Shown in pieces: positions 7,001-60,793 of a stretch of DNA of 64,000 bases. The notes below the pieces were generated by a model. The model had not been told where the DNA came from. It made no database searches and saw nothing but the letters and a program-made list of their open reading frames with translations. The stretch's first letter is position 1. Each line of letters starts with the position of its first letter. The translations under genes and the position numbers were made by a program. The DNA lies in the NCBI RefSeq assembly GCF_011764425.1, contig NZ_BLPF01000002.1:62001-126000 (forward strand), written 5' to 3'. The DNA comes from Phytohabitans houttuyneae (lineage in GTDB: Bacteria > Actinomycetota > Actinomycetes > Mycobacteriales > Micromonosporaceae).

Positions 7001-8550
7001 TGCTGTCGCTGCTGCCGCTCGCCGGCACGCTGTGCCTGATCCAGGCGCTGGCCGAGGCCGCCGGCGACACTCGGCTCTGGTGCGCCACCCGCGCCGCGAT
7101 GCCGGCCGGGCCGGGCGAGGTGCCGGCCGACGCGCCGCAGCAGGCCGAGCTGTGGGGCTTCGGGCGGGTGGCCGCACTGGAGTACCCCGAAACCTGGGGC
7201 GGCCTCGTCGACCTGCCGGCGCACCCCGACGACCTGGACGCCGACCTGCTGCGGGCCACCCTCGCCGGCCGGATCGAGGACCAGGTGGCGCTGCGTCCCG
7301 GCGGTGCCCTGGTGCCCCGGCTGGTGCCCGCGGCGGCCCCGGACGGGCCGGGCTGGCACCCCGCGGGCACGGTCCTGGTCACCGGCCCCGTCCACGGGCA
7401 GGCCGGCCCGGTGGCGCGATGGCTGGCCCAGAGGGACGGCGTGCGGGTGCTGCTGCTGGACAACGCCGCGACCAGAGCCGACACGGAGGAGCTGCGCACC
7501 GCCGGCGTCAGCGTGGTCGACTCTGCGCCGGACGGGCCGATCAGTACGGTCATCCACACCACCGCCGCCGGCGACCTGGCGCCGCTGGCGGAGCTGACCC
7601 TGGACACCCTGACCGCGTCGGTGGCCGCCACGCTCGGCCTGGCGGGCGACGTCGACGCCGACGAGACCGTCTACTTCTCCTCGGTGACCGCGACCTGGGG
7701 CAGCCGCGACCACGGAGCGTTCGCCGCCGCCAACGCCCACCTCGAGGCGCTCGCCCGCCTGCGCCGCGCCCAGGGACGGCGCGCGACCGCGGTGAGCTGG
7801 GGTCTCTGGCACCTGCCCGAGGCCCTCGGCGACCGCGAAGCCGGCGCCCGCCGGCAGGGCCTGCTGCCGCTGGCACCGGCCGCCGCACTCGCCGCGCTGG
7901 AGCGGGTACTGTCCACAGGGGACGACCACGCGGTGGTGGTGAACGCGGACTGGCACCGGTTTCTGCCGCTCTTCACCGCCGCACGACCCGTCCCACTCTT
8001 CGACGACCTCCGCCTCGCGGTCGAGGAGCCGGTCGAGGCGGGCCCGTCCGAGTCGCCGCTGCGGCGGGAGCTCGCCGCGCTCGACCCGGAGGGCCGCGCC
8101 GCCCGCCTGGTCACTCTGGTCCGCACTCACGCCGCCGCGGTACTGCGCCACCCGACCCCGGCCGCGGTCGCCCCGCACCGGCCGTTCAAGGAGCTCGGCT
8201 TCGACTCGATCGCCGGCGTGGAGCTGCGCAACCGGCTGCGCGCGGCGACCGGGCTCGCGCTGCCCAGCACGCTGGTGTTCGACTTCCCCACCCCGGACGC
8301 CGCGGCCGGGTACCTGCTCAGCCAGCTCGGCGGTGACGGCGCACCCGCGTTCGGCGACCTGGCCGGCTTGGAGGCGGTGCTGGCGGCGCTCTCCCCGGGC
8401 GACGCGGCGCGGACCCGGCTGGTGCGGGAGCTGCAGGCGCTGGTCTGGAAGTACGGCGGCGACCCGGGACCGGCCGAGGAGAAAGAAGACCTCGGCGATG
8501 CCAGCGCCGAGGAGATGTTCGCACTCATCGACAGGGAACTGGGAGGCTGA
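4024..8550 (+). CDS. Type I modular PKS: KS-AT(methylmalonyl)-KR(inactive)-ACP
   Basis: A 1508-residue single module. An N-terminal coiled-coil docking segment (residues 10-40) precedes a KS with Cys in DTACSSSL (about residue 216), EAHGTGT and SNLGHTQ. The AT has GQGSQ, nucleophile GHSQGE (about 649) and YASH (about 751), the signature of methylmalonyl-CoA selection. The reductive region (bases 6780-7960) is a degenerate ketoreductase: the glycine motif is TGPVHGQAG, the catalytic Lys is gone and the active Tyr is Phe (HGAFAAANA), though the Ser (YFSS) remains. It should leave a beta-keto group. The ACP carries GFDSI (about residue 1395), followed by a C-terminal docking tail. No thioesterase domain is present. 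It lies 3 bp upstream of the O-methyltransferase and is probably co-transcribed with it. Confidence 0.95.
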
Positions 8551-8553
8551 GTC

Positions 8554-9219
8554 ATGGCGAGTCAGGTCGAAGCGTCACCGGATCTGCTCGGCTACGTGCG
8601 CGACGTCTCGCTCCGCGACGACGACGTGCTGCGGGAGCTGCGCGAGGTCACCGCGGCGCTGCCCGCCGGCCGCGCCATGCAGGTGATGGCCGAGGAGGGG
8701 CAGCTGCTCGCGCTGCTGGTCGGGCTGACCGGGGCGCGGACGGTGCTGGAGGTCGGGACGTTCACCGGGTACAGCACGCTGTGCATGGCCCGCGCGCTGC
8801 CCCCGGACGGCCAGGTGATCACCTGCGACATCACCGACCGGTGGCCCGCGATCGGCGCCGACTACTGGCGCCGGGCTGGCGTCGAGGAGCGGATCCGGCT
8901 GCGGGTCGGCGACGCCACCGTGACCCTCCCCGCGCTCGAAGACGAGCTGGGCGCCGGCGGGGTCGACCTCACCTTCATCGACGCGGACAAGCGCAACTAC
9001 CGCGCCTACTACGAGGCGGCGCTCACGCTGACCCGTCCGGGTGGGCTGATCGTGCTGGACAACACCCTGTTCTTCGGCCGTGTCGTCGACCCCGCCGCGC
9101 AGGACCCCGACACGGTCGCCATCCGGGAGCTGAACGCGTTTCTCCACGGCGACGAGCGGGTGGAGATCTCCCTGCTGGTCATGGCCGACGGCATCACGCT
9201 GGCCCGCAGGCGCGGATGA
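8554..9219 (+). CDS. fkbG: FkbG-type O-methyltransferase (methoxymalonyl-ACP pathway)
   Basis: 221 residues, class I SAM-dependent methyltransferase of the caffeoyl-CoA OMT family. SAM motif I is [13 protein letters not shown] and the metal/substrate segment is FIDADKRNY, followed by the family's [16 protein letters not shown]. In FK506/FK520-type pathways FkbG methylates hydroxymalonyl-ACP to methoxymalonyl-ACP. The other four genes of that pathway lie just downstream on the opposite strand (9254-12624), which supports this role over post-PKS tailoring. It follows the PKS by 3 bp and converges on the fkbH homologue with only 34 bp between stops. A role as a late tailoring OMT acting on the finished polyether cannot be excluded. 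Confidence 0.85.
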
Positions 9220-9253
9220 TCGCCGGGGCCACCGTGCGGCGCCCGCGCGGGGC

Positions 9254-10336
9254 TCACCGCACGGCGGCCGCGCCGGCGAGATCGACGGCGTCGAGGCTCA
9301 TGGTCGTCAGGGCGGGCTGCCGCACCGGAAGCAGGTGCAGGCGCTGCACGTTCTCGCCGGCCGGGGCGAGGTCGGCCCGGCAGTCGCACGGGTCGTCGGT
9401 GTAGCCGGCGAACCGGTACGCGATCTCCATCATGCGGTTGCGGGCGGTGGGGCGGAAGTCGGCGAGCAGGTGCTTGCCGGCCTGGGCAGCCTGGTCGGTG
9501 AGCCAGTTGACGATGGCCGCGCCGGCGCCGAACGACAGGACGCGACACGAGGTGAGCAGCAGCTTGAGGTGCCAGACGGAGGTGTGGCGGGCCAGCAGCA
9601 GGACACCGACCGCGCCGTGCGGGCCGAAGCGGTCGGCCATCGTCGCGACGAGGACCTCGTGGTCGGGGTCGTCAAGCAGGGCACGCAGGACGCTGTCCGG
9701 GTAGTGGACGCCGGTGGCGTTCATCTGGCTGGTACGCAGGGTCAGCTCCTCGACGCGGGTCAGCTCGTCGCCGGTGGCCCGGCCGATCCGCATCCGCAGC
9801 CCCAGGGAGCGCAGAAACTCCTCGTCCGGTCCGTCGAACTCGCTTTGCGCCGCCTCGCGCTGGAAGCTGGCCTGGTACATCTGGCGGCGTCGCCGGGCGT
9901 CCACCGTGACCGTGCGAGGGCTGAACTCGGGCAGGCGCAGCAGCGTGCCGAGCTGCTCGGGCGTGTAGCAGCGCACCTGCGGTGCGTGGTAGAGGACCTC
10001 GGCGCGCTCGGCCGGCTGGTCGTCGATGAAGGCGATCGTGCCCTCGGCGAACTGCAACCGCTCGGCGATCCGCCGTACCGCGTCGGACTTGCGGCCCCAG
10101 CCGATCTGCGGCACGACGAAGTAGTCGGCCAGCCCCAGCTCCACCAGGCGGTCCCAGGCCGGCTCGTGGTCGTTCTTGCTGGACACGGACTGGAGGATGC
10201 CGCGCGCGTCGAGCTCGGCGACGACGGCGAGCACATCGTCGCGCAGCCTCACCTCGGGGTCCTCGGACAGGGTGCCGTGCCACAGGGTGTTGTCCAGATC
10301 CCAAATCAGGCACTTCACCATGGTGGGGTCGGCCAT
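9254..10336 (-). CDS. fkbH: FkbH-like HAD-family glyceryl-ACP forming enzyme
   Basis: 360 residues, the normal FkbH length. The HAD motif WDLDNTLWHGTL is at residues 12-23, followed by SVSSKND and FIDDQPAERAEV; a Cys (TSCRVLSFG) lies in the C-terminal GNAT-like part. FkbH enzymes take 1,3-bisphosphoglycerate and load a glyceryl group onto a discrete ACP, here the adjacent FkbJ homologue. I chose ATG 10336 (MADPTMVKCLIWD), with GGAAGGA about 10 nt upstream; ATG 10321 is the alternative. It is the last gene of a minus-strand run. FkbH homologues also occur in tetronate pathways, but the adjacent dehydrogenases and OMT point to methoxymalonyl-ACP. Confidence 0.9.
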   Translation of the reverse strand: MADPTMVKCLIWDLDNTLWHGTLSEDPEVRLRDDVLAVVAELDARGILQSVSSKNDHEPAWDRLVELGLADYFVVPQIGWGRKSDAVRRIAERLQFAEGTIAFIDDQPAERAEVLYHAPQVRCYTPEQLGTLLRLPEFSPRTVTVDARRRRQMYQASFQREAAQSEFDGPDEEFLRSLGLRMRIGRATGDELTRVEELTLRTSQMNATGVHYPDSVLRALLDDPDHEVLVATMADRFGPHGAVGVLLLARHTSVWHLKLLLTSCRVLSFGAGAAIVNWLTDQAAQAGKHLLADFRPTARNRMMEIAYRFAGYTDDPCDCRADLAPAGENVQRLHLLPVRQPALTTMSLDAVDLAGAAAVR

Positions 10337-10356
10337 CGGAGCGCGGTCCTTCCGGT

Positions 10357-11481
10357 CTAGGCACCCGCCGCGGCGCTCGCCACGGCGTGTCGGGCGATGA
10401 TGAGCTGGCAGATCTCGGAACTGCCCTCGATGATCTCCATGAGCTTGGCGTCCCGGTACGCCCGCGCGACAACGTGTCCGTCCTGGGAGCCGGCCGAGGC
10501 CAGCACCTGCACCGCGGTGGCGGCACCGGCGGCGGCGTGGGTGGAGGCGGTGTACTTGGCCAGCACGGTCGCGGTCACCGACTCCGGGGAGCCGGCGTCC
10601 CAGCAGCGGCTGGCGTGCTCGCAGGCGCGGGTGGCGGCCTGCTCGGCGGTGTACAGCTCGGCCAGGTGGCGGGCCACGAGCTGGTGCTCGGCGAGGGGCC
10701 GGCCGAACTGGGTACGCGTCGCGGCGTGGCCGGCCGCCGCGGCGAGGCAGGCGCGCAGGATGCCCACGCAGCCCCAGGCCACCGACATCCGGCCGTACGC
10801 GAGCGCGATCGTGACCGGCAGCGACAGCGGCTGCCCCGGGCCGCCGAGCAGGGCCGTGGCGGGCAGCCGGACCCCGTCCAGATGGACGGTGGCGTGGCCG
10901 GCCGCGCGGCAGCCCATCGGCTCGGGCACCGGCTCCACGCGTACCCCGGGCGCGTCCACGGGCACGAGCGCGGCGGCGCCGCCGTCGCCGTACCGGCCGA
11001 AGACGACGAGGACGTCGGCGTACGCGGCCGCGGTCATCCAGACCTTCACCCCGTCGAGCCTGACGCCGTCCCCGTCCGGCGCGATCCGGGTGTCCATCGT
11101 GGACAGGTCGCTGCCGGCGCCCGGCTCGCTGAAGCCGACCGCGGCGAGCCGTTCGCCCCGGGCCAGCGCGGGCAGCCAGGTTGCCCGCTGCGGCGCGGAG
11201 CCGAGCCGCTGGATCGCCCACGCGGCCATCCCCTGAGAGGTCATCACGCTGCGCAGGGAGCTGTCGCGGCTGCCGGCGTGCGCGGTCAGCTCGCCGTTGG
11301 CGAGGCTGGTCAGGCCGCGCCCGCCGTGGCGGGCGGGTACCTGCGCGCACAGCAGACCGGCGGCGCCCAGCTTGCGCAGCACCGGCTCGGGCAGCGCGCC
11401 GGCGCTGTCCCAGGCTCCGGCCTGGTCGCCGACGAGCTCGTCGACGAGTGCCGTCGCCTCGGCCAGGTACTGGTCAGGCAC
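10357..11481 (-). CDS. fkbI: FkbI-like acyl-CoA (acyl-ACP) dehydrogenase
   Basis: 374 residues of the flavin-dependent acyl-CoA dehydrogenase family: GFSEPGAGSDLSTMDTRI in the middle domain and the C-terminal catalytic segment IIEGSSEICQLIIARH. In the methoxymalonyl-ACP route FkbI takes part in oxidising the glyceryl-ACP carbon skeleton toward hydroxymalonyl-ACP together with FkbK. The GTG start (11481) overlaps the end of the ACP gene by 8 bp, indicating tight translational coupling. A gap of 20 bp separates it from fkbH. Confidence 0.9.
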   Translation of the reverse strand: MPDQYLAEATALVDELVGDQAGAWDSAGALPEPVLRKLGAAGLLCAQVPARHGGRGLTSLANGELTAHAGSRDSSLRSVMTSQGMAAWAIQRLGSAPQRATWLPALARGERLAAVGFSEPGAGSDLSTMDTRIAPDGDGVRLDGVKVWMTAAAYADVLVVFGRYGDGGAAALVPVDAPGVRVEPVPEPMGCRAAGHATVHLDGVRLPATALLGGPGQPLSLPVTIALAYGRMSVAWGCVGILRACLAAAAGHAATRTQFGRPLAEHQLVARHLAELYTAEQAATRACEHASRCWDAGSPESVTATVLAKYTASTHAAAGAATAVQVLASAGSQDGHVVARAYRDAKLMEIIEGSSEICQLIIARHAVASAAAGA

Positions 11482-11758
11482 CGCTGGCCACCGGTTCCTC
11501 GCGCAGTCGCAGCACCAGGTCGGTCATCCGGCGCACCGAGCGGAAGTTGTCCAGCACCAGGTCGGGGCCGGCGATCACGATGTCGTGTTCCCGTTCCAGA
11601 TGGACCACCAGCTCCATGGCGAACATCGAGGAGACCAGCCCGGCGGCGAACAGGTCCTGCTCCGGATCCGGGGTGACCTTGACGCGCTCGTGCAGGAACG
11701 CGGTCACCCCGGCTGCGATCTGGTCCGCGCCCGGCCGCTCGGACGGTGTGTCGGTCAC
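11474..11758 (-). CDS. fkbJ: FkbJ-like discrete acyl carrier protein
   Basis: 94 residues from a GTG start that overlaps the fkbK stop (GTGA). It is a stand-alone carrier protein: the phosphopantetheine Ser is about residue 44 in AGLVSSMFAMELV, which matches the atypical FkbJ-type site rather than the DSL of module ACPs. It should carry the glyceryl, hydroxymalonyl and finally methoxymalonyl groups and present the extender to an AT. Its position between the two dehydrogenase genes is the usual cassette order. Confidence 0.88.
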   Translation of the reverse strand: MTDTPSERPGADQIAAGVTAFLHERVKVTPDPEQDLFAAGLVSSMFAMELVVHLEREHDIVIAGPDLVLDNFRSVRRMTDLVLRLREEPVASGA

Positions 11759-12624
11759 GGCAAAGCCCTCCCGTAGTCGTCGTAGAAGCCCCGGCCGGAC
11801 TTGCGGCCGAGGTGGCCGTCGCGCACTTTGCGCAGCAGCAGCTCGGCGGGCTGGCAGCCGGGGTCGGCGGTGCGCTCGTACAGCACCCGCAGCGAGTCGG
11901 CGAGGTTGTCCAGCCCGATCAGGTCGGCGGTGCGCAGCGGGCCGGTGGGGTGGCCCAGGCATCCGCGCATCAACGCGTCCACGTCCTCGACGCCGGCGGT
12001 ACCTTCCTGCACCACGCGTACCGCGTCGTTGATCATCGGGTGCAGCAGGCGGCTGGTGACGAAGCCGGGCGCGTCGCGGACGACGGTCGGTGCCCGGCCG
12101 ATCGAGGTGAGCAGCGCGGTCACCGCAGCCATCGCCGGCTCGCCGGTCCGCGACCCGCGGATCACCTCGACCGCCTTGATGAGGTAGGCGGGGTTCATGA
12201 AGTGGGTGCCGACGAGGGACGTGGGGTCGGGCAGCGCGCCGGCCAGCTCGTCCACCGGGATCGACGAGGTGTTGGTGACCAGCGGGGTGCCGGCGGCGAC
12301 CACCGCGGCCACCTCGGCGAGGAGCTTTGCCTTCAGCCCGCTGTCCTCGGTGACCGCCTCGATCACGACCGTGCTGCCCGCCGCGTCGGTGACCGAGACG
12401 CCGGTGGCCAGATCCCCGGCGGGCCGGTCCGGCGGCAGTACGCCCATGAGCTGGGCGTGCCTGAGCTGCCCGGCGATGCCGGTGCGCGCCCGGGCGGCCC
12501 GCTCCCGGTCCACCTCGATCAGCGTGACCGGGACACCGTGCCCGACCAGCAGCGTGCCGATGCCCACGCCCATCACGCCGCCGCCGAACACCGCGACCCG
12601 GCGGGCCGTCTCCCGCTCGTTCAT
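11755..12624 (-). CDS. fkbK: FkbK-like 3-hydroxyacyl-CoA dehydrogenase
   Basis: 289 residues with an N-terminal Rossmann NAD site (VAVFGGGVMGVGIGTLL, residues about 10-26) and the 3-hydroxybutyryl-CoA dehydrogenase fold (GTHFMNP, GFVTSRLL). FkbK oxidises the hydroxyl of the glyceryl-ACP intermediate in methoxymalonyl-ACP synthesis. The ATG start has GGAGG 7-11 nt upstream, inside the 13-bp gap after the upstream PKS gene, so it is part of the same transcript. It overlaps fkbJ by 4 bp. Confidence 0.9.
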   Translation of the reverse strand: MNERETARRVAVFGGGVMGVGIGTLLVGHGVPVTLIEVDRERAARARTGIAGQLRHAQLMGVLPPDRPAGDLATGVSVTDAAGSTVVIEAVTEDSGLKAKLLAEVAAVVAAGTPLVTNTSSIPVDELAGALPDPTSLVGTHFMNPAYLIKAVEVIRGSRTGEPAMAAVTALLTSIGRAPTVVRDAPGFVTSRLLHPMINDAVRVVQEGTAGVEDVDALMRGCLGHPTGPLRTADLIGLDNLADSLRVLYERTADPGCQPAELLLRKVRDGHLGRKSGRGFYDDYGRALP

Positions 12625-12637
12625 GCGCGCCTCCGTC

Positions 12638-15600
12638 TCAGGCCGGGCTCAGGGCGCCGGCCGGCCGTACGCCCCGGTGCGGTGGCAGCAGGGTGGTCAG
12701 GTGCGCGGCGAGCTCGTTGGTGGTGGGTTTGTCGACGATGGCAATGAGGGGTATGTCGAGGGCGGTGGCGTCGGTGAGGCGGCGGGTGAGTTCGAGGGCG
12801 GTCAGTGAGGTGAGGCCGTTTTCGAGGTAGTTGGCGTGGTCGTCGACGGGGTGTCCGAGGACGTCGGTGACCTCGGCGCGGATCAGTTCGCGGAGCAGGT
12901 GCTCGCGCTCGTCGCCCGGCGCGGCCGCCAGCCGCTCGGGCAGCGGCACCGCATCCGGCGGCGGCGGTGGCAGCAGGGTGGTCAGGTGCGCGGCGAGCTC
13001 GTTGGTGGTGGGTTTGTCGACGATGGCGATCAGGGGTATGTCGAGGGCGGTGGCGTCGGTGAGGCGGCGGGTGAGTTCGAGGGCGGTCAGTGAGGTGAGG
13101 CCGTTTTCGAGGTAGTTGGCGTGGTCGTCGACGGGGTGTCCGAGGACGTCGGTGACCTCGGCGCGGATCAGCTCGCGGAGCAGGTGCTCGCGCTCGTGCG
13201 CCGGCGACGCGACCAGCCGCTCCGGCAACGGGGCGCCGCTTGCCGTGTCCGGGCCGGTGGTACGGGAGCCGGGTGCGGCGTCGGGGAGCGCCGCGAAGAG
13301 GCGGCCGCCGCCCAGCTCGGTGGCTTTGACGACGCGTTCCCAGTCCACGTCCGCGACGACTGTGATCGGGGTACCGGCGCCGACCGCCGCGGCGACGATG
13401 GGGGGCAGCGCCGCGACGGGCAGCGGCCGCAGGCCCGACTCGGCCGGCTCGCCGTCGCCGACTGGACCGACCAGTATGGACACCGCCGGCACGCCGAGCC
13501 CTCGGCACCGCTCGGCCAGCGCGGCCAGGCGTGCGGCGCTCGCCGCTCCCGGGCCGCCGAACGCGCCGGCCGCGTCGGCGATGATCACCAGCGTGGGTAG
13601 GCCGGCGTCGACCGCCAGCGCGCAGAGCCGTTCGGCGGCGGGCAGTGGATCGTCCGGGCCGGCCACGTGCACCACCGCGGACACGCCGGACAGCTCGGTG
13701 GGGTCGTCGGCACGGATCACCCGAGCGGCGCCGGACTCGGCGACCCAGTCGGCCAACCGGGCGCCCAGGGCGGTACCGGAACCGCTGACCAGGACGGTGC
13801 CCGACGGGCGCCAGGGCGTTGCCGCTCCGGTCGCGAAGCCGCGCAGCAGCCGCCGCGCGTGTACGCCGTCCGGGCGTACCGCGGCCTGGTCCTCGCCGGC
13901 GCCGGCGAGCAGGCCAGCCAGGCGGCGGCCGGTGTGCTCGTTCAGCGCCTCCGGCAGGTCCACGAGCCCGCCCCAGCAGTGCGCGTGCGCGGCGGCCAGC
14001 TCGCCGCCCATGCCCCACAGGCCGGCCGCGTACGGGTCGGTCACCGGGTCGGCGCCGCCGACCGCCACCGCACCGCGGGTCACCGTCCACACCGGAGCGA
14101 CGAGCCCGGCGTCGTCGAGGTGGCGCAGCAGTGTGACGGTGCCGGCGGTGTCGAGCAGGTTGAGCACGCCCGCGGCGGCGTTCGTGGTGACCGCTTCGGC
14201 CACCGCCTCCGGGGCGGCACCGGTCACCTCGACGACCTCGGCGCCGTGCGCGCGCAACACCGCCGCCTCGGCCGCCGCGCCGCCCGGCGAGACGACAACC
14301 CAGCCGCCGGCCAGCCGGGGCGCGACGGGGTCGGGCAGCTGCTGCCACGCGATCCGGTACCGCCAGCCGAGGCCCCGCCGGTAGCGGGCCAGCGCGGCGG
14401 CGGTGGGTGCCAGCAGCGCCGCCTCGTCCGGGTCGGCGCCGATCGCGCGGGCCAGGACGCCGGCGTCGCCGGTGGCCACAGCGTCCCAGAACTCGGCGTC
14501 GCCGTCGCCGGGCGCGGCGGCCGGGGCGGGCAGGTCCAGCCAGAGCCGGTCACGCTGGAACGGGTACGTCGGCAGGCCGATCACCGGCGGCGTCGCCTCG
14601 GCGGTGAACCAGGCCCGCCAGTCGACGTCCACGCCGGTGGTGTGCAGCCGGGCCAGGGCCAGCGCCAGCGCGCGCGGCTCGGCCTGCAGGTGGTTGATCA
14701 GGGCGAGCACCGGGGGCGCGGTGCGGCCCAGCGCCTCCTTCGCCGCGGCGGCCACGACCGGGTCCGGGCCCAGCTCCAGGTAGGCGACGGCGCTCCCGGC
14801 GGTCGCCGCCACCGCCGCGCCGAACGCGACCGGCTCGCGTACCTGCTGGACCCAGTAGCCGGGCGTGGCGATCGACTCGCCGGCCGGCGCTCCGGTGCGG
14901 GTACTGACCACGGTGGTGTGCGGGGTCCGGTAGCCGAGGTCGGCGATGGCCTCGGCGAAGGCGGACAGCGCCGGCTCGACCAGCGGGGAGTGCGCCAGCT
15001 GGGCCTGCGGCAGGTGTCGAACCCTGCGCCCGCGACCGGCCCAGGCGGTCGTGATGCGGGTCATCGCCTCGGCGTCGCCGGTGAGCCTGGTGACGCGAGG
15101 CGCGTCGACCGCGCACACCGCCACCGCGCCACCGCCGCGGGCCACGTCGGGGGCGAGTTCGGCGGCGCTGGCCTCGATGACCGCGGTCGCGCCGCCCGCC
15201 GGCAGTGACCGCAGCAGCGCCAGCCGAGCGGTGAGCAGCCGGCAGGCGTCGGGCAGGTCGAGCACGCCGGCCACGTGCGCGGCGGCGAGCTCACCGGCCG
15301 AGTGCCCCACCACGGCGGACGGGTGCAGGCCGAACGTCGCCAGCAGCCGGGCCAGCGCCACCTGGAGCGCGAACAGCTCGGCGGCCGGCTCCAGCGCGGC
15401 GCCGTCCGGGGCACTGCTGGCCGCGCCCGCTTCGCTCGCCGCGGCGAGCAAGCCGCGTACCTCGTCGTGGGCGGCCGCGAACGCGGGGAACGCCGCGCGT
15501 AGCGCGGTGCCGGCGCCTTCCCGGTGCCCGTCCTCGCCGGTGAACAGCCAGACCGCGCCGCCCTCGGTCACCGCCGCGCCCGGGTCGATGACCGCCGGGT

Positions 15601-17251
15601 GCGGCTGGCCGGTCGCCAGCGCCTCGAGCCCGGCGCGGATGTCGGCGGCGTTCTCGCCGACCACCACCGCGCGGTGTTCGAAGGAGGGTCGGGTGGTCAC
15701 GGCGGACCAGGCCATGGCGGCCGGGTCCGCTTCGGGCAGCGCGGCGACCGCGCCGGCGAGCGCGCGCAGGGCGGCCGAGGCGCGGGCGGAAAGCGGTACC
15801 AGCGCGACCTGGCCGGGCAGCGGCGCGGCGGGTCGGGCCGGCTCGGGCGGCGGTGCCTGCTCCAGGATCAGGTGGGCGTTGGTACCGCTGATGCTGAACG
15901 AGGAGACGCCGGCGCGCCGGGGGCGGGCCGGGTCGGGTGTCCAGGGCAGCGGCGCGGTCAGCAGCCGCACCGCCCCGGCGGACCAGTCGACATGCGGGGT
16001 CGGGTCGGCGGCGTGCAGGGTCGGCGGGAGCGTGTCGTGGCGCAGCGCCTGCACCATCTTCACGATCCCGGCGACGCCGGCGGCGGCCTGGGTGTGTCCG
16101 AGGTTCGACTTGACCGAGCCGAGCCACAGTGGACGGTCGGGGTCCCGCCCCTGCCCGTAGGTGCTTTGGAGCGCCTTGACCTCGATCTGGTCGCCGAGCG
16201 GCGTACCGGTGCCGTGCGCCTCGACAGCGTCCACATCGGACGGCCCGAGGCCGGCGTCGGCGAGCGCGGCGCGGATCACCCGCTGCTGCGCCGGTCCGTT
16301 CGGGGCGGCCAGGCCGGTGCTGGCGCCGTCCTGGTTGACCGCCGTGCCGCGGATGAGCGCGTACACGGGATGCCCGTGCCGCCTGGCGTCGGAGAGCCGC
16401 TCGAGCACCAGCATGCCGGCGCCCTCGCCCCAGCCGATGCCGTCGGCGTCCGCGGCGAACGACTTGCACCGCCCGTCGGCGGCAAGGCCGCGCTGGCCGG
16501 CGGAGGAGAGGAACGTGGCGGGTGTGCGCATGACCGCGACGCCGCCGGCCAGGGCGAGCGCGGTGGTGCCGCGGCGCAGCGCCTGGGCGGCCAGGTGCGC
16601 CGCGACGAGCGCGGAGGAGCAGGCGGTGTCCAGGGTGACGGCGGCGCCCTGCAGTCCCAACACGTACGCGATGCGGCCGGAGGCGATGCTGCCGGCGTTG
16701 CCGTGCTCCAGGTACCCCTCCAGGCCTTCCGGCGCCTCGTCCAGCCGGGCGGCGTAGTCGTGGTACATCAGCCCGGCGTACACGTCGGTGCTGGTGCCGC
16801 GCAGCGAGCGCGGGTCGATGCCGGCGTTCTCCACCGCCTCCCAGGCCACCTCGAGCAGCAGCCGCTGCTGCGGGTCGGTCACCAGCGCCTCGCGCGCGCT
16901 CATCCCGAAGAAGGCCGCGTCGAACGCCGCCGGATCCTCCAGGAAGCCACCCTCCCGGCTGTACGTGGTGCCGCGGTGCGCGGGGTCCGGGTGGTAGATC
17001 CGGTCCAGGTCCCAACCGCGGTCGGTGGGGAAGGCGCCGATCGCGTCGCCCCCGCCGCGTACCAGGTCCCACAGCGTGTCCGGGCTGTTCACCCCGCCCG
17101 GGTAGCGGCAGGCCATCCCCACGATGGCGACCGGCTCCGCCGCGGACCCGTTGCCGGCTCCGGACTCCAGCTCGGCGATCCGCTGCTGTGCCCGGGCCAG
17201 CTCGGACGACGTCCAGCGCAGGTACTCGACCAGCTTCTCTTCATTGCTCAT
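12638..17251 (-). CDS. Type I PKS module with atypical AT, inactive KR and tandem ACPs: KS-AT*-KR0-ACP-ACP
   Basis: 1537 residues from ATG 17251 ([21 protein letters not shown] upstream). A docking coiled coil leads into a KS with an intact Cys (DTACSSAL), AHGTGT and SNLGHTQ. The AT (about 15560-14700) keeps the nucleophile GHSAGE but has GEDGH where other ATs have GQGSQ, and QLAH where others have HAFH or YASH. The KR-like region (14350-13350) has SGSGTALG for its cofactor site and no catalytic Tyr or Ser, so it should be inactive. Two ACPs close the protein, near-identical at protein and DNA level, with NGLTSL instead of GFDSL and [13 protein letters not shown] after helix III, unlike every other ACP here. 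The gene sits between the epoxidase and the methoxymalonyl genes. The AT may select methoxymalonyl-ACP, or the module may hold the polyene during oxidative cyclisation; both are inferences. Confidence 0.93.
12681..12913 (-). repeat. Tandem ACP repeat, copy 2 (C-terminal ACP)
   Basis: About 233 bp, nearly identical to 12966-13198 (offset 285 bp, 95 codons); I see only about three differing bases (for example near 12741-12744 and 12887). Both copies use unusual codons and read G/T-rich on the plus strand. This suggests a recent in-frame duplication or active gene conversion. Confidence 0.9.
12966..13198 (-). repeat. Tandem ACP repeat, copy 1 (first ACP)
   Basis: Partner of 12681-12913. The two copies are joined by a short Pro-rich linker ([14 protein letters not shown]). 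The phosphopantetheine segment [11 protein letters not shown] is the same in both. Confidence 0.9.
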
Positions 17252-17277
17252 CGCAGCGGCCTTCCTTACCGGCACGG

Positions 17278-18702
17278 TCACAGACGCGGTGCGGCGGCGA
17301 CGGCGCCGCGCGGGACAAGGTTCACCAAGGCGAGCTCGTCGCGGTCCAGCGGCGGGCCGGTCAGCTCCGGCAGCAGCGGGTCCTGTTGCATCAACGTCAG
17401 GAAGCGGGAGGTGCCGAGCTCCGCCTGCGGCACCGCGAGGCTGGTCACGTCGGTGACCACTTCGGACACCCGGGGTGCTCGGATCGCCTTGACCGCCAGC
17501 GCCTCGGTGAACCGCTGGCGGGACAGTGCGCCACCGGTGAGGCGGGGGTCCCTGGCGAGGTTGCGGCAGTTGACATAGCAGATGTCCCGGGAGGTCGCCA
17601 TGATCCAGGCGTCGTCCACCGCGGTGCTGACCGCGCGCTGTACGTCCCGGATGCGCCACTCGCCCCGGCGCAGGTGGCCGTCGAGCACGGCGGCGCCGCG
17701 CGCGGAGGCGCTCAGCCCGTGCCCGTAGATCGGGTTGAACGCGGCCAGCGAGTCGCCGAACGCCAGCAACCCGTCCGGCCACGCCTCCAACCGTTCCGGG
17801 TACAGCCGCCGGTTGATGCCGATGCGCGAGGTGAACACGCCGGTCAGCGGCTCGGCCCGCTCCAGCACGTCGGCCACCAGCGGGTCGCGCAGGGAACGGG
17901 CGAACGGCAGGAAGTCCGCGTCGGTGGCGGGCAGCGTGGCGCCGCGGGTGCCGGAGAGGGTCACGATCCAGCGGCCGTCCTCGATCGGGTACACGGCCCC
18001 GTTGCAGCCGGGCTCTCGTACCCGGTAGTCGCCGAGCACGTTCAGCGCGGGAAAGCCGGTGCTCGCACCCTCGGGGGCCTGGAAAATCCTCGTGACGTAG
18101 CCGATGCCGACGTCCACGATGTCCTCGTCGATCGGCGGTACGTCGAGCGCGGCGAGCCAGTGCCGCAGCCGCGAGCCGCGCCCGGTGGCGTCGACGACGA
18201 GGTCGGCGGTCAGCTCCTCGGTGGTGCCGTCGTGCACCGTGCGGACCTCGGCGCCGGTGATCCGGCGGGCGTCGCCGAGCAGCCGTACCGCCTCGACGCC
18301 CTGCCGCAGCAGGACCCGGCCGAGCGCCATGATCTGCTCGCGGATGACGAAGTCGAGCATCGGCCGGCTGACCATCACCGCGTACTGGGCCGCCTCGAAC
18401 CGGTGCTGCCAGCCGTGCGCGGTGAGCGTGACGAGGTCCTTGTGCACACCGATGCGGCGGGCGCCGGCGGCGTCGAGCCGGTCCAACGCGCCGGGCAGCA
18501 GCTCCTCGACGATCCGGGCACCGCCGGACCACAGCAGGTGGCAGTGCCGGGCCTGGGGCAGGCCCTTGCGGTGTTCCGGCCCGTCCGGCAGCGTGTCCCG
18601 TTCCACGACGGTGACGGTGTCCAGGTGCCGGGACAGCGCGTGGGCCGCCAGCATCCCGGCCCAGCCGCCGCCCAGCACGATCGCGTGTGCGGGTCTGCTC
18701 AT
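17278..18702 (-). CDS. monCI: MonCI-like FAD-dependent polyene epoxidase
   Basis: 474 residues. The N-terminal FAD site is [12 protein letters not shown] (about residues 9-20), followed by a conserved stretch resembling MonCI ([20 protein letters not shown]), a GxG-type [15 protein letters not shown], and the second flavin motif [16 protein letters not shown]. MonCI and LasC epoxidise the E-alkenes of the linear polyether precursor so that hydrolases can cyclise it. The two MonB-type epoxide hydrolases lie immediately upstream in the same direction, a classic polyether pairing. A 26-bp gap separates it from the following PKS gene. Only one epoxidase is visible, as in monensin and lasalocid, so it would act iteratively. 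Confidence 0.93.
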
Positions 18703-18807
18703 CGCTTCGCCCTGCCCTCTTCCTCCGGCGGCTCGCGCCGTAGTCGATGCTTGTGGCCGGTTCTTAAGCTGCTCTTGCGCCGCCCTTGCGCGAGCGCCGG
18801 CGCGGGC

Positions 18808-19302
18808 TCACGGGAGGGCGCCGTTGCGCGACGGCGGCGGGCCGGCCGCGCCGAAACGCTCGGTGCTCAGCCGCGCCAGGCTCGCGGTGACCTCCATGAA
18901 CTCGGCCACCCCGGTCGGTTTGGAACCGTCGCCGACCGTGGTGTCGGTCAGCCCCCAGAAGGCCCGCGCGCGGTGCACCAGATCGTCGTCGCCGACCTCG
19001 ATCACGCTGACGATGCGGAACGCCAGCCGGGTCGGGATCTGTACGGTCACCACCATCGGCAGGGACACCTGGCGGTCGTCCATGGCACACACCGGCCGGC
19101 CCGGGGTCTCGTGCACCTTGAACGCGATCGACCAGGCGATGTGGTGGCGTACCGCCTCCCGGCCGACGATCGGGGTGATGCCGACCGGGTCCTCGAAGAC
19201 GATGTCGTCGGCGAACAGCTCCAGGACCCGGTCGACGTCGCCGGCGTTCATCCGGGCGGCGTACTCCAGCACGATCCGTTTGCGGGTCTCCTCGTCAGGC
19301 AT
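18808..19302 (-). CDS. monBII: MonBII-like polyether epoxide hydrolase/cyclase
   Basis: 164 residues, SnoaL/NTF2 (ketosteroid isomerase) fold. The N-terminus (MPDEETRKRIVLEYAARMNA) and FEDPVG resemble MonBII and the N-terminal half of Lsd19. The catalytic acid pair known from Lsd19 (Asp38, Glu65) falls at exactly residues 38 (FEDPVG) and 65 (KVHETPG). It should open epoxides regioselectively to build ether rings. It overlaps the upstream MonBI-like gene by 8 bp. The 105 bp between it and the epoxidase hold no gene. Confidence 0.92.
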   Translation of the reverse strand: MPDEETRKRIVLEYAARMNAGDVDRVLELFADDIVFEDPVGITPIVGREAVRHHIAWSIAFKVHETPGRPVCAMDDRQVSLPMVVTVQIPTRLAFRIVSVIEVGDDDLVHRARAFWGLTDTTVGDGSKPTGVAEFMEVTASLARLSTERFGAAGPPPSRNGALP

Positions 19303-19750
19303 CGCCGGCCTCCGCGTCCAGCACGGTGATGTCGGACCGGCCCCAGTACGCGCGCATCGACCTGATCAGCCCGCCCGGTCCGGTCTGGATCATGAGCATG
19401 TACTCGCAGCGCAGCCGCTGCCGGTCCGGCTCTTCCGGTGGCGCCAGCCAGCCCCGCCGGGCGTACCCAGGGCCACGCGGCGCGTAGTCCATCACGGCGG
19501 TCACCGGTACCAGCGCGTGCCGGCCGTCCTGCCCGGCCACGGGTTCGCCGGCGGTCTCCCGGACCCCGGCGGCCACCGCCTCGGCCAGGTGCGCCCGCAG
19601 CGCCTCCCGCCCGGTACGCGTACCCGCGCCGACCGGGTCCTCGAACGTGACGTCATCCCCGTAGAGCCGCATCAGCCCGTCGAGGTCTCCCGCGCTGAGT
19701 AGGCGGGAGTGCTCCAGGGCCAGCTTCTTGCGGGCGTACTCGTCGATCAC
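19295..19750 (-). CDS. monBI: MonBI-like polyether epoxide hydrolase/cyclase
   Basis: 151 residues, NTF2 fold. The N-terminus (DEYARKKLALEHSR) and internal EPVAGQDGRHALVP closely follow MonBI. The Asp38 (FEDPVG) and Glu65 (VRETAG) positions of the Lsd19 acid pair are both present. The GTG start overlaps the stop of the upstream PKS (GTGA), so translation is coupled. With the MonBII-like neighbour it gives two hydrolases. In monensin the pair acts together on three epoxides; in lasalocid one fused protein does both steps. Confidence 0.92.
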   Translation of the reverse strand: MIDEYARKKLALEHSRLLSAGDLDGLMRLYGDDVTFEDPVGAGTRTGREALRAHLAEAVAAGVRETAGEPVAGQDGRHALVPVTAVMDYAPRGPGYARRGWLAPPEEPDRQRLRCEYMLMIQTGPGGLIRSMRAYWGRSDITVLDAEAGDA

Positions 19751-22700
19751 GCGGCGCCTCCCACCTGCTGTCTGCCGAGGTTCCGGTCGATGAACGCGAA
19801 GATCTCTTCGGTGCTGGCGGTACGCAGCTCGGCCACCGGGTCCGGTACGGCCGCCGCGGGCGCCGGCAGCAGCTGGTCGCGCAGGTGGTCGGCGAGCGCG
19901 GCCGGGTTGGGATGGTCGAAGATCAGCGTGTTGGTCAGCCGCAGCCCGGTCGCCGCTCCGAGGGTGTTGCGCAGGTCGATCGCGGTGAGCGAGTCGAAGC
20001 CCAGCTCCAGGAAGCCGCGGTCGGCGGCGACGCGGGCGGCGTCCCGGTGCCCGAGCACCGCCGCCGCATGGGTGCGGACCAGCTCGAGCAGGACGCGGTG
20101 GCGCTCCGCCTCGGGCAGCGCGGCGAGGCGGGCGGCCCAGTCGGTCGGCGGCGTCGCGGTGGTGGCCGCGGCACGCCGAGCCGGGCGGGCGGTGCCCGCG
20201 AGGCCGCGCAGCGGCGCCGGTACCGCTTCGGTCGGGAGACCGGCCAGCGCTTTCGGGTCGAACGCGGCGGCGACAAGGTGAGCGGCGGGATGGCGGCAGG
20301 CGGCGTCGAGCAGGGCCAGGCCCTCGCGGGGGCGAGCGGGATCACCCCGGCCCGCCGCATCCGCGCCCGGTCGGCGTCCCCGAGCCCCGCGGTCATGCCG
20401 CCGGCGGTGGCCCAGGCACCCCAGCCGATCGCGAGGCCGGGCAGCCCGGCCGCGCGCCGCTTCGCGGCGAGGGCCTCGCAGTAGGCGTTCGCGGCGGCGT
20501 AGTTCGCCTGGCCCAGCGAGCCGAGGGTGGCCGCCGCCGAGGAGAACAGCAGGAACATGCCCAGGTCGAGCCCGGCGGTCGCGGCGTGCAGTGCGGCCGC
20601 GCCGCCGGCTTTGGCGCGCCACACGGTCGCCAGCCGCCGCTCGTCCTGCGCGTCGAGCATCGCGTCGTCGACCGCGCCGGCCGCGTGCACCACCCCGGTC
20701 AGCGGGTGCGCCGGGTCGATGCCGGCGACGAGCCGGACCACCGCGTCCTCGTCGCCGATGTCCACCGCCGCCAAGGTCGCCTCCGCGCCGGCGGCGGCGA
20801 GCCTCTCCCGGAGGCGGTTGGCGCCGGGTGCCGCCGGGCCCTGCCGACTGGCGAGCAGGAGGTGCTTGACGCCCCATTCGCGGGCCAGGTGCTCGGCGGC
20901 CAGCGCGCCGAGCGCACCCGTGCCGCCGGTGACGAGGACCGTGCCGTCCGGGTCCAGGCGCGGCGGCTCCTGCTCGCGGGCGCCGGTGGCCGGGTGGAGC
21001 CGGATCCGGTACGGCTGGCCACGCCGGATCGCGAGCTGCGGCTCGCCGGTCGCGACGGCGCCGGCCACGGCTCGCTCGTCGCCGTCGTCGCCGATGTCGA
21101 CGAGCACGAGGCGCCCCGGGTGCTCGGACTGGGCGCTGCGCAGGACGCCCCACGCGCCGGCGGCGGCCGGGTCCGCGCCCGCGCCGTCGACCGGTACCGC
21201 ACCGCGGGTGAGCAGCACGAGCCGCCCGTCGCCGTCCGGGTGCGCGGCGAGCCAGTCGCGTACCAGGCGCAGGGCCTGCGCGGCAGGGGCGGGGCCGCTG
21301 CCGGGGGCGACGCGCGCCACCTCGACGGCGACCGGTCCGGCCGGGGCGATCGGCTCGTAGTCCACTGTGTACAGATGCGGGTGCGCGGGCAGCCGGCTGG
21401 GTGCGGCGGGGCGCATCATCAGGGAGTCCACGGTGAGTACCGGCGCGCCGGCGGTGTCGGACAGCTCCACCCGCAGCGCCTTGCGGTCGGTGTGCGGGGA
21501 CAGCCGGGCGCGTACCGTGGCGGCCCCGGTGGCCCACAGGCGCACGCCGTTCCACGCGAACGGCAGCCACACCCGGCCGTCGCCGGTGTCCCGGATCAGC
21601 AGCGCCGGGTGCAGCGCGGCGTCCAGCAGCGCCGGGTGCACGCCGAAGCCCGCCGGGTCGCCGGCCTCCTCGGGCAGGCACACCTCGGCCAGCAGGTCGG
21701 CGCCGAGTCGCCAGGCGGCCCGCAGCCCTTGGAAGGCCGGCCCGTACCCGTAGCCGGCGCCGGTCGCCTCGGCGTAGAACGTGGACAGGTCGACCGGCTC
21801 GGCGCCGGCCGGCGGCCAGGTCACCCGGTCGTCGGGTGGAGGCGCTTCGGTCTGTGCGGCGAGCACGCCGTCCGCGTGCCGGGTCCAGCCGCTGGCGCCG
21901 TCGGGCTGGGAGTGGATCGACACGTCGCGCCGGCCGGTCGGATCCGCCGGACCGACCGAGATCCGCACCCGGGTGCCGCCGTCCGCGTGGAGGGAGAGCG
22001 GCTCCTGGAGGGTCAGCTCCTCCACGGTTGGCGCACCGACCTCGTCGCCGGCGCGGATCGCCCACTCGGCCAGCGCGGCGCCGGGTACGAGCACCTGGCC
22101 GCCGACGGTGTGGTCGCCCAGCCAGCCGCCGGCCGCGGGTAGCTGCCCGGTCGCCACCAGGCCGCCGTCCGGCAGGGGTACCGCGGCTGCCAGCAGCGGG
22201 TGGCCGAGCGGGTCCTGCCCGGCGGCGCGGACGTCCGTGCCGGCCGTGCCCGGTCCGCTGATCCAGTACCGCTCCCGTTGGTACGGGTACGTCGGCAGCG
22301 GCGCCGCGCGCGGCTTCGGGTCGGGGTACCAGCTCGCCCAGTCGACCGGGACGCCGGCCACGTGCAGCTGGGCCAGGGACCGGGTGAACGCCTCCACGTC
22401 GGGTCGCTTGCCGGTCAGGGTGGTGGTGATCAGCGCGTCGCCGTCCGGCGGCAGGGTGTGTCCGGCGGCGGTGGCGAGCGTGGCGACCGGGCCGATCTCG
22501 AGCCAGCTGCCGGGCCGGTATGCCTGGTGGGCGTGGGCGACGGCCGGGTGGAAGAGCACCGGCTGGCGGATCTGCGCCGTCCAGTAGTCGGCGTCCAGGA
22601 CGGCGGCGGGCTCTCCGGTGAGGCCACTGACCAGCGGTACGCGCGGCGCGGTGAAGTCCAGCCCGGCGATCGCCGCCCGGAACGGGTCGAGGATGGGCTC

Positions 22701-24955
22701 GGCCGCGGGGGAGTGGAACGCGTGGCTGACCGCCAGCCGCCGGGCCCGCCGCCCGCGTGCGCGCCACCCGTCGACGAGCCGGTCGACCTGCTCGGCCGGT
22801 CCGGACAGCACGGTGGTACCGGGGTGTTGCGGGCCGCGACCACGACCGCCGGGTGCGCGGCGAGGTCCTCGGCGAGCTCGTCCTCGGTGGCGTGGACGGT
22901 CGCCATCGCGCCGCCGGCCGGCATCCGCCCCATCAGCGTCGCGCGGGCGGCGACGAGTCGGCACGCGTCCGGAAGGCTGAGCGCACCGGCCACGTGCGCG
23001 GCGGCCAGCTCGCCGATCGAGTGACCGATCACCACGTCCGGGCGCGGTCCGAAGCTGCCCAGCAGCCGGGCCAGCGCCACCTGCAGGGTGAACAGTCCGG
23101 CCTGCGCCCAGGTGGTGTGGTGGACGTCGGCGCCGGTGACATCGCGCAGCTTCCGGCCCAGGTGCGGCTCGATCAGCGCGCACACCTCGTCGTACGCGGC
23201 GGCGAAGGCGGGGAAGCGGGTGTACAGGTCGGCGCCCATGCCCGCCCGCTGCGAGCCCTGCCCGCTGAACATCCAGACGCTCTTGCCGGTGCTGGCCGGT
23301 GCCACGCCGCGTACCACGTCGAGATGCGGTTCGCCCGCGGCGAGCGCGGCGAGGCCCTCCTCACCGAGCACGACCGACCGGTGCGCGAAGGTGGAGCGGG
23401 TGGTGGCCAGCGCGTACCCGATCCGGGCCGGGCTCGCCGTGGCGGTCACCGCCAGCAGCCCGGCGGCCTGGGCACGCAGCGCCGCGTCGCCGTGCGCGGA
23501 CAGCGGCCACGGCACCGGACCGGCCGGCTCGACCGGTTCGGCCGCACCGGGTTCGACCTCCTCGGGTGGCGCTTCCTCCAGGATCATGTGGCAGTTGGTG
23601 CCGGAGATGCCGAACGAGGACACCCCGGCGCGGCGGGGGCGCCGCGGCGACGCGGGCCACGGCACCGGATCGGTCAGCAGCCGTACCGCGCCCGCGTCCC
23701 AGTCCACGTACGGGGTCGGCTCGTCGACGTGCAGGGTGGCCGGGAGCATGCCGTGGCGCAGGGCCAGCACCATCTTGATCACCGCGGCGGCGCCGGCGGC
23801 GGCCTGCGTGTGCCCGAGGTTGGACTTCACCGAACCGAGCCACAGTGGACGGTCGGCGGCCGGCCTGTCCTGCCCGTACGTGGCGATCAGCGCCTGCGCC
23901 TCGATCGGGTCGCCGAGCCGGGTGCCGGTGCCGTGTGCCTCGACGGCGTCCACCTCGGCCGCCACCAGGCCGGCGGCGGCCAGCGCGCGGCGGATCACCC
24001 GCTGCTGGGCCGGGCCGTTCGGTGCGGTGATGCCGCTCGAGGCACCGTCCTGGTTGACCGCGGAGCCCCGGATCACCGCCAGCACCGGATGACCGTCGCG
24101 GCGGGCGTCGCTGAGGCGTTCCAGCAGCAGCATCGCGGCACCCTCGCTCCACGACGTGCCGTCCGCCTCGGCCGCGAACGCCTTGCACCGCCCGTCCCGG
24201 GCCAGCCCGCGCTGGCGGGAGAACTCGATGAACCCGCCCGGTGTGGACATCACCGTGGCGCCGCCGGCCAGCGCCAGCGAGCACTCCCCGGCACGCAGCG
24301 CCTGTACCGCCATGTGCAGGGCCACGAGCGAGGAGGAGCAGGCGGTGTCCACAGTGACCGCCGGTCCTTCCAGGCCGAACGTGTACGCCACCCGGCCCGA
24401 CGCCACGCTGCCCAGATTGCCGGTGGCCACGTGCCCGCCGGCGTCCGCGCCGGAGGCGTTGATCAGCGTCAGGTAGTCCTGCACGGCGACACCTGCGTAG
24501 ACGCCGATGTCCCGCCCGTGCACCGCCTCGCGGGTCAGCCCGGCGCTCTCCAGCGTCTCCGACGCGGTCTCCAGCAGCAGCCGGTGCTGCGGGTCCATGG
24601 CGACCGCCTCGCGCGGGCTGATGCCGAAGAACTCCGGGTCGAAGTCGGCGACCCCCGCGAGGAAACCGCCCTGGGTGGCGTAGCTGGTACCGCGGCTGTC
24701 GGGGTCGGGGTCGAACAGCGCGCTCAGGTCCCAACCGCGGTCGGTGGGGAAGTCGCCGATCGCGTCGCCGCCGGCCGCCAGCAGTTCCCACAGCTGCGCG
24801 GGGCTGCGCACGCCGCCGGGGAAGCGGCAGGCCATGGCGACGATGGCGACCGGTTCACGGTGCCGCTCGGCAAGGTCGCGCAGCTCGCGCCGGGCCTGCC
24901 GCAGGTCGGTGGTGGCCCGCTTGAGGTAGCTGCGCAGCTTCTGTTCGTCTTCCAT
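19747..24955 (-). CDS. Type I PKS module KS-AT(malonyl)-DH-KR-ACP (two apparent frameshifts)
   Basis: ATG 24955 ([18 protein letters not shown] docking helix) to stop 19747. Two frame breaks interrupt it: near 22819 in the AT (one base missing from a CCC run; adding it restores [11 protein letters not shown]) and near 20328-20332 after the KR (one G missing from a G run; adding it restores [14 protein letters not shown]). With both repaired the length is an exact 1736 residues. [10 protein letters not shown] near 24338. AT: GQGSQ, GHSIGE and HAFH near 22720, the malonyl signature. [14 protein letters not shown] near 22110 and [23 protein letters not shown] in place of LDD (B-type), Tyr in NYAAANAY near 20500. 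ACP: LGFDSL near 19988. No ER, so it should leave an alkene, as polyether epoxidation needs. Probably functional with consensus errors rather than a pseudogene. Confidence 0.9.
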
Positions 24956-24958
24956 CGC

Positions 24959-31407: not shown

Positions 31408-44873
<13,466 letters not shown>

Positions 44874-44926
44874 CCCACACTCCCCTTTCACGACAGGCAC
44901 AGCGGCATCCGGGACGCCGCGGGTTC

Positions 44927-57544: not shown

Positions 57545-57556
57545 GGAGGCCCACCC

Positions 57557-57784: not shown

Positions 57785-57789
57785 GAGGA

Positions 57790-60790: not shown

Positions 60791-60793
60791 AGG

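Follow-up and report, generated by a model that had tools for sequence, protein, structure and literature searches.

A methoxymalonyl-ACP cassette inside a polyether gene cluster was described in 2020 for tetromadurin, whose mad cluster combines mad11-15 (methoxymalonyl-ACP) with MadC/MadB and has one predicted methoxymalonyl extender (excerpted text of PMC7489565). Here we analyzed a 64,000-nt window from Phytohabitans houttuyneae (positions 62001-126000 of contig C2, in a genome of 11,342,817 bases and 5 contigs), in which a full fkbG-H-I-J-K cassette lies beside homologs of MonCI, MonBI and MonBII. An earlier note on this stretch had hinted that such a cassette is new to polyethers, a point that the mad cluster does not bear out; the locus adds another, dissimilar example of a polyether with a predicted assembly-line methoxy group, at the opposite chain end from tetromadurin's. 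The cluster probably makes a nigericin/monensin-type carboxylic polyether with one methoxy group placed during assembly and a chlorinated 6-methylsalicyl-type acyl group attached. In the literature searched, with most subscription journals outside the search, we found no description of a carboxylic polyether with a methoxymalonyl or ChlB-type cassette.

Pfam and NCBIfam scans placed all five fkb genes together, with fkbG converging on the fkbK-J-I-H run, and PDB searches returned MonCI and the two halves of a MonBI/MonBII structure as the best matches of the adjoining minus-strand genes, in agreement with what the earlier note had read from the letters. The eight genes are listed below by window position, with percentage identity in Phytohabitans suffuscus for the cassette.

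8554-9219, plus strand: FkbG-type O-methyltransferase converging on the cassette (Methyltransf_3, 1.1e-65; 75%, convergent there too)
9254-10336, minus strand: FkbH-type glyceryl-ACP-forming protein with a DLDNT motif (TIGR01686, 325 bits against a cut-off of 147; 74%)
10357-11481, minus strand: FkbI-type acyl-CoA dehydrogenase (Pfam; 71%)
11474-11758, minus strand: FkbJ-type ACP (Pfam; 53%)
11755-12624, minus strand: FkbK-type 3-hydroxyacyl-CoA dehydrogenase (Pfam/NCBIfam; 68%)
17278-18702, minus strand: MonCI-type flavin epoxidase (best PDB match MonCI, 1e-177; Lsd18/LasC next)
18808-19302, minus strand: MonBII-type epoxide hydrolase/cyclase (MonBII half of PDB 9kw8; Asp38 and Glu65)
19295-19750, minus strand: MonBI-type epoxide hydrolase/cyclase (MonBI half of PDB 9kw8; Asp38 and Glu65)

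By gene content the cassette is a complete methoxymalonyl-ACP set, and its predicted product is methoxymalonyl-ACP. The same eight genes (fkbG-K, monCI, monBI and monBII) stand together in P. suffuscus at 49-75% identity, so their association in the window is more than chance. Both hydrolases are SnoaL-like, and a direct count on the translations located Asp38 and Glu65 in each; a catalytic role for the two residues was reportedly established in work on Lsd19. The epoxidase is 61% identical to MonCI by alignment, compared to 49-60% reported among such enzymes. It keeps the fixed positions of the motif RKGX1PQX2RHX3HX4LWSX5GA, with X1 = L and X3 = C outside the listed residues, and fits AFNPX1X2GHGMSX3X4A except for Leu in place of Met at one fixed position (motifs from the excerpted text of PMC10560226). 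Elsewhere in the genome, the second FkbH found at E<=1e-70 (C3:694577, outside the cluster) belongs to another full fkbK-J-I-H set with a convergent fkbG (C3:692400-696300), 53-71% identical to the first and with only a weak AT match nearby; this set is probably the published pks/nrps-6.

The genes kept in P. suffuscus (tblastn) span C2:8751 to C2:114920 (~8.8-114.9 kb), with the signature AT described below, a MonE-like methyltransferase candidate and a chlorinated-aryl cassette in the left half beyond the window. This is the published t1pks-6 of P. houttuyneae NBRC 108639T, for which Table 5 of PMC7692728 lists twelve proteins and a deduced 'deschlorothricin-like polyketide': six of the twelve protein sizes (3493, 1347, 3825, 1537, 841 and 2148 aa) equal frame sizes of the polyketide synthase (PKS) genes here exactly, and the remaining ones differ by start choice. 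It is an orphan polyether cluster, whole in gene content and with frame breaks in the assembly, that was deposited and listed already, but misfiled. The P. suffuscus counterpart, pks/nrps-12, was called 'likely polyene with Leu' and strain-specific in the same source. Our analysis corrects both labels to polyethers of one shared design.

The PKS was reconstructed from domain and motif scans, which put a KSQ loading module and modules 1-7 on the plus strand, for the most part to the left of the window, and modules 8-12 and a KS-AT-ACP-ACP protein on the minus strand, for a total of one loading and 12 extension modules. The parts in the window are as follows.

2-4027, plus strand: 3' part of PKS-C (start C2:54493), module 6 from inside the AT (YASH), then DH-ER-KR-ACP (Pfam, motifs)
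4024-8550, plus strand: PKS-D, module 7, docking-KS-AT(YASH)-inactive KR-ACP (KR Pfam match covering only profile positions 63-179)
12638-17251, minus strand: KS-AT*-ACP-ACP terminal protein (Pfam: weak AT, two ACP stretches; GHSAGE/AQLAHS)
19747-24955, minus strand: module 12, KS-AT(HAFH)-DH-KR-ACP, in three frames (breaks at ~22.8 kb in the AT and ~20.0 kb before the ACP)
24959-31405, minus strand: module 11, KS-AT(YASH)-DH-ER-KR-ACP (domain and motif scans)
31408-38514, minus strand: end of module 9 (rest of AT, KR, ACP) and module 10, KS-AT(YASH)-KR(no LDD)-ACP (break at ~38.5 kb in the module 9 AT)
38238-44900, minus strand: module 8, KS-AT(HAFH)-KR(no LDD)-ACP, and module 9, KS-AT(part) (domain and motif scans)

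The AT motifs are HAFH in the loading module and modules 1, 4, 8, 9 and 12, YASH in modules 3, 5-7, 10 and 11, and FSAH in module 2. Reductive domains specify an alkene in modules 1, 3, 5 and 12, full reduction in modules 2, 4, 6 and 11, and a hydroxyl in modules 8-10, whose KRs lack LDD. The module 7 KR has neither the GxGxxG pattern nor the catalytic Tyr, and the module is predicted to leave a ketone at carbon 13; modules 1-7 thus run alkene-reduced-alkene-reduced-alkene-reduced-ketone. We infer the module order and chain structure from a collinear reading with module 12 last, in which carbons are numbered as, we presume, in nigericin: the chain would carry a C13 ketone, alkenes at C16-17, C20-21 and C24-25, a C2-C3 enoate and a C7 hydroxyl, and the last two could close ring A.

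Several PKS genes change frame with profile continuity kept; in the module 12 AT, for example, one frame runs to profile position 155 and the next starts from 154. Breaks lie near 38.55, 55.4-56.4, 82.0, 84.8 and 100.5 kb of contig C2. PacBio alone was used for the genome, and its authors were unable to separate artefacts from real splits (PMC7692728, excerpted text); the P. suffuscus PKS genes are split likewise. The KRs of modules 9 and 8 (C2:98559-99074 and C2:103034-103549; window 36559-37074 and 41034-41549) hardly differ across their motif region, and identical rows in the AT tree set came from modules 5 and 6 (C-terminal AT pieces), which suggests recent duplication or gene conversion.

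The terminal protein at 12638-17251 ends in near-identical tandem ACPs (window 12638-13400), and its P. suffuscus counterpart has GQGQGE where GHSxGE is expected. The substrate of MonCI is the chain on MonACPX (excerpted text of PMC10560226). Because of its weak AT, the tandem ACPs, the GQGQGE of the counterpart and the action of MonCI on a MonACPX-held chain, the protein is most likely a KSX/ACPX-like chain-transfer protein and not extension module 13; if it extended the chain instead, the skeleton would gain two carbons and a C3 ketone. The module reading given earlier for the minus strand otherwise agrees with the domain and motif scans, and only its 'ketone module', which is this protein, is probably not an extension module. 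The same AT, adjoining fkbK, was also considered as the methoxymalonyl AT and rejected: the counterpart has lost the active-site serine pattern, and the domain falls in a malonyl-type grouping on a long branch.

A better candidate is the AT of module 2, left of the window, whose motif region reads WRWRIPGVDFSAHS; exactly one such AT is present in P. suffuscus, where it reads LRWRIPGVDFTAHS. The signature GVDF[ST]AHS occurs in one AT per Phytohabitans cluster, and the other modular ATs, the terminal protein aside, carry YASH, FASH or HAFH. Across 394 genomes of the class, a pattern for DNA encoding GVDF[AST]AHS matched three, FkbH of at least 61% identity was present in nine and FkbH at E<=1e-70 in 21. 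All three pattern genomes were among the nine; with the own genome excluded, both remaining genomes fell among 8 of 393 (chance ~4e-4 by arithmetic). The signature AT lies ~33 kb from the fkb genes here and 5 kb from them in genome G015; in genome G486 its distance to a second fkbIJK set is 24 kb. Eleven further genomes were searched, four of them within the 394, and two matched: P. suffuscus and S. olivoreticuli, at 49 and 11 kb from a cassette.

In a tree of 55 ATs taken from seven sets of stretches, the five signature ATs grouped in a single clade (99/91; 0 of 500 shuffles reached so low a value), and every one lies within 50 kb of methoxymalonyl genes. On these two grounds, the module 2 AT likely uses methoxymalonyl, and the methoxy carbon is predicted at C22 by collinear reading in both Phytohabitans clusters, whose starter ends differ by one module. 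The earlier idea that a methoxymalonyl extender is built into the chain is therefore likely, given this dedicated AT, which the table of PMC7692728 marks as an unusual 'ATe'. In all five, a hydrophobic-Arg-Trp triplet ([WLM]RW) precedes the signature, with six residues and then FxAH. For comparison, MXW(X)5YASH, which tolerates other hydrophobic residues, was proposed for ATs of ACP-linked extenders as opposed to RXR(X)5YASH (Haydock 2005, quoted in PMC4207774, excerpted text); because the Trp-FxAH spacing is one residue longer in the signature ATs, the exact RXR positions mostly hold Arg. The short signature may help predict methoxymalonyl use, unlike the whole C-terminal AT piece, which we also tried as a search marker and discarded: it matched 97 of 394 genomes and thus does not separate substrates.

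The second element outside the window is the aryl cassette (C2:8751-18831 and 24125-25762). It comprises an iterative KS-AT-DH-KR-ACP PKS, three KASIII-like proteins, two halogenases that share 68% identity and a pair of small ACPs, of which one has no Pfam match and was assigned from its resemblance to the other. The PKS was judged 6-MSAS-like from its domain order only. The halogenase tested best matched ChlB4 (PDB 7fco, 760 bits), and the one KASIII tested of three best matched ChlB3 (PDB 7eqi, 421 bits). A ChlB-type set consists of a 6-MSAS-type PKS, an ACP, a ChlB3/B6-type KASIII and a ChlB4-type halogenase; going by these matches, all parts for a chloro-6-methylsalicyl group are present in the cluster. 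A ChlB4/ChlB3-like cassette would account for the name 'deschlorothricin-like' given in print. Aromatic side groups are on record in polyethers, namely in cationomycin and in CP-54,883 from Actinomadura routienii, the latter with two chlorines on its aromatic ring (excerpts of PMC9144361 and PMC3613094), and we found the gene cluster of neither in the literature searched.

The P. suffuscus 'likely polyene with Leu' cluster (AP022871, ~16-130 kb) is, by its homologous genes, the sister of the P. houttuyneae polyether cluster. In addition to the cassette, tblastn recovered monBI (49%), monBII (58%), monCI (63%), the methyltransferase (62%), the iterative PKS (58%), both halogenases (78% and 75%, the second split) and two KASIII proteins (57% and 60%). 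FkbH was tested in seven genomes with close MonCI homologs (P. suffuscus, S. aurantiacus, S. olivoreticuli, S. atriruber, A. fibrosa, D. roseum and G008), and only P. suffuscus has the cassette within a polyether cluster, the contigs of S. atriruber and G008 being short. S. olivoreticuli was considered as a third methoxymalonyl polyether producer and rejected: its fkb genes and their own signature AT (1650-1666 kb) are separated by other PKS and non-PKS DNA from the polyether genes (1727-1790 kb, cut there), where 10 of 10 ATs found lack the signature. The 460 contigs of G008 hold monCI and a 59% FkbH separately, S. atriruber has 44% and 32% FkbH matches on contigs other than that of monCI, and the AT signature is absent from both genomes. 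D. roseum gave only a 31% partial fkbH match, with the signature absent from the genome and from six full ATs (80 kb); its 2.99-3.05 Mb region is a probable polyether cluster in which a similar ChlB4-like halogenase, an ACP and a KASIII lie between two different MonCI homologs (58% and 60%), with no methoxymalonyl genes in the stretch. In G486, a modular PKS with fkbI-J-K (6.53-6.57 Mb) has no fkbH within 80 kb, and two pathways may share one fkbH, since the only strong one lies 1.18 Mb away in another cassette.

Taking these results together, the module 2 AT would take up a methoxymalonyl unit as the PKS builds a triene ketone (alkenes C16-17/C20-21/C24-25, ketone C13, hydroxyls C7/C9/C11, enoate C2-C3, methoxy C22). 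The chain would move to the KS-AT*-ACP-ACP protein, the MonCI homolog would epoxidize the alkenes, and the MonBI/BII homologs would open the epoxides to give rings. Separately, the 6-MSAS-like PKS, ChlB4-like halogenases and KASIII-like acyltransferases would make and transfer the aryl group. Beside the gene content, motifs, synteny and AT clade that we observed, we infer the AT substrate, module order, chain structure, order of steps and acylation site. The literature searched yielded no such carboxylate polyether, with both a PKS-placed C22 methoxy and a chlorinated aryl ester.

The collinear core is C33H56O10; adding a chloro-6-methylsalicyl ester and one methyl gives C42H63ClO12, with [M+NH4]+ at 812.4346. 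An unassigned m/z 812.44 is listed only for P. houttuyneae in PMC7692728, in a table without isotope patterns (excerpted text). The match was made post hoc: one of 32 predicted P. houttuyneae values fell within 0.012, the difference is 6.6 ppm and 812.4346 rounds to 812.43. A random ion between 500 and 1000 with a mass defect of 0.25-0.60 came within 0.006 of one of the 32 values in ~0.2% of trials, and with the terminal protein extending the skeleton, none of 32 values matched 812.44. Tetromadurin was likewise detected as [M+NH4]+ (excerpted text of PMC7489565). The ion fits C42H63ClO12, with other formulas possible, and serves as a lead only. The full proposal, that the product is a nigericin-type chloro-6-methylsalicyl ester C42H63ClO12 with the PKS-derived C22 methoxy inside a cascade ring, and is the 812.44 ion as [M+NH4]+, is tentative and on the doubtful side. 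It offers a concrete mass and isotope pattern to seek in a culture-collection type strain.

Several observations weigh against the proposed pathway. The AT signature is not identical to MXW(X)5YASH, having six residues and not five between Trp and FxAH (Haydock 2005, quoted in excerpted PMC4207774); the FK520 methoxymalonyl ATs lack Gln in GHSxG, where the module 2 AT has GHSQGE; and the GVDF[AST]AHS pattern is absent from six of the nine genomes with close FkbH. The predicted methoxymalonyl AT of tetromadurin carries YASH (PMC7489565), and in the bafilomycin paper methoxymalonyl and methylmalonyl ATs could not be told apart clearly (PMC3679948; excerpts in both cases). In the assembly a frameshift breaks the module 2 AT, and the epoxidase has Leu where the five enzymes compared in PMC10560226 conserve Met (excerpted text). 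Since a MonE-like methyltransferase candidate is also encoded, some methoxy groups may be late. Finally, the P. suffuscus ion at 505.40 matches none of its 32 predicted values.

The late route can be taken further, with all methoxy groups coming from O-methylation and the fkb cassette inherited and idle, which we regard as decidedly unlikely. The possible MonE-like methyltransferase (C2:27471-28280) is 62% identical in P. suffuscus, and relatives at 33% lie next to monCI in A. fibrosa and D. roseum. Five fkb genes and a signature AT have nonetheless been kept in two species despite ~45-78% protein identity, which is rare for idle genes, and the broken module 2 AT loses force as an argument for idleness because several PKS genes of both species, both PacBio-only assemblies, have frame breaks. 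We also considered it unlikely that the aryl and halogenase genes form a separate neighboring pathway and the polyether is undecorated. They lie at the cluster edge here and on either side of the PKS in P. suffuscus, and D. roseum has its halogenase and KASIII with no 6-MSAS-like PKS in the 80 kb examined. However, the aryl genes accompany the polyether genes in both clusters, which are rearranged relative to each other, halogenase, ACP and KASIII sit between two monCI homologs in D. roseum, and polyethers bearing aromatic groups are known (cationomycin, and CP-54,883 with its two chlorines).

The remaining explanations keep a tetronate. A deschlorothricin-like spirotetronate would be expected to have tetronate and sugar genes and no epoxidase/hydrolase pair. 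The cluster instead has a MonCI-type epoxidase, paired MonB-type hydrolases and a single FkbH (the other genome copy at E<=1e-70 is that at C3:694577), and no glycosyltransferase or sugar genes were seen among the genes scanned with Pfam. With these features, the published t1pks-6 prediction of PMC7692728 is hardly credible, even though the aryl cassette is nearest to ChlB4 and ChlB3 of chlorothricin; the main text of that paper has no match to the terms polyether, methoxymalonyl, halogen, epoxid or methylsalicylic. A polyether tetronate akin to tetromadurin, in which glyceryl-ACP feeds the tetronate instead of, or besides, methoxymalonate, has a precedent in that tetromadurin combines both features (PMC7489565, excerpted text), and KASIII-like proteins are present. 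We still judge it very improbable: fkbI, fkbK and fkbG would be superfluous, the one KASIII tested of three best matches ChlB3 along with other KASIII-like proteins, DpsC and CerJ among them, there is only one FkbH among the scanned cluster genes and at E<=1e-70 and no second glyceryl-ACP system, and no Pfam match among those genes hints at an Agg4/Agg5-like pair.

To the right of the PKS genes, the cluster continues with the following genes, again with identity in P. suffuscus.

44965-46302, minus strand: Na+/H+ exchanger, possibly for self-protection (70%)
46585-47352, plus strand: SARP-type regulator (65%)
47406-48158, minus strand: type II thioesterase (61%)
48672-50095, minus strand: two carboxyltransferase halves, presumably for extender supply (76% and 62%)
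50206-52920, minus strand: LuxR-family (LAL-type) regulator, right edge of the conserved cluster (45-46%)

Beyond this edge, window positions 53695-63481 encode molybdenum hydroxylase subunits, a GntR regulator, an NMT1-type ABC transporter and a fusion of an FAD-binding protein with HEAT repeats, with no counterpart within the 140 kb of P. suffuscus compared. In the left part of the cluster, an M28-type peptidase (C2:22299-23621) is kept in both Phytohabitans clusters (59%) and directly precedes fkbK in P. suffuscus.

Compared with known systems, the cluster shares MonCI, MonBI and MonBII homologs and the triene-ketone logic with the monensin and nigericin clusters, to which its MonE-like methyltransferase and MonCII-like hydrolase candidates are presumably also akin; we know of no methoxymalonyl or ChlB-type aryl cassette in either. 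The mad cluster of Actinomadura verrucosospora has MonCI/MonB-type enzymes and the five-gene cassette for one methoxymalonyl unit in common with it, and differs in releasing a tetronate, for which it has another FkbH plus FabH-like and Agg4/5 genes, and in a methoxy group at C4 from module 13 with a YASH AT; a chlorinated aryl cassette is not mentioned in the excerpted text. With chlorothricin chlB it shares a ChlB4-like halogenase and a ChlB3-like KASIII, but here the cassette adjoins a polyether PKS and has two halogenases, three KASIII-like proteins and two small ACPs, combining an assembly-line methoxy with an aryl-chlorination cassette known from spirotetronates. P. suffuscus pks/nrps-12 has in common monCI, monBI/BII, the five fkb genes, the signature AT, the iterative PKS, two halogenases, KASIII, the methyltransferase, the transporter, the regulators and, by module reading with its PKS protein order assumed by analogy, the same reductive order from C21 to C1; it differs in having 11 extension modules, a propionate-type starter, the signature AT in module 1, two KASIII matches instead of three and a rearranged gene order. 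CP-54,883 and cationomycin are likewise polyethers with an aromatic group, a likeness by description and not by structure in the excerpts used. If C42H63ClO12 were confirmed, no non-tetronate polyether before it would, to our knowledge, have carried a methoxy group from the assembly line; its family would include the compound of P. suffuscus and possibly CP-54,883.

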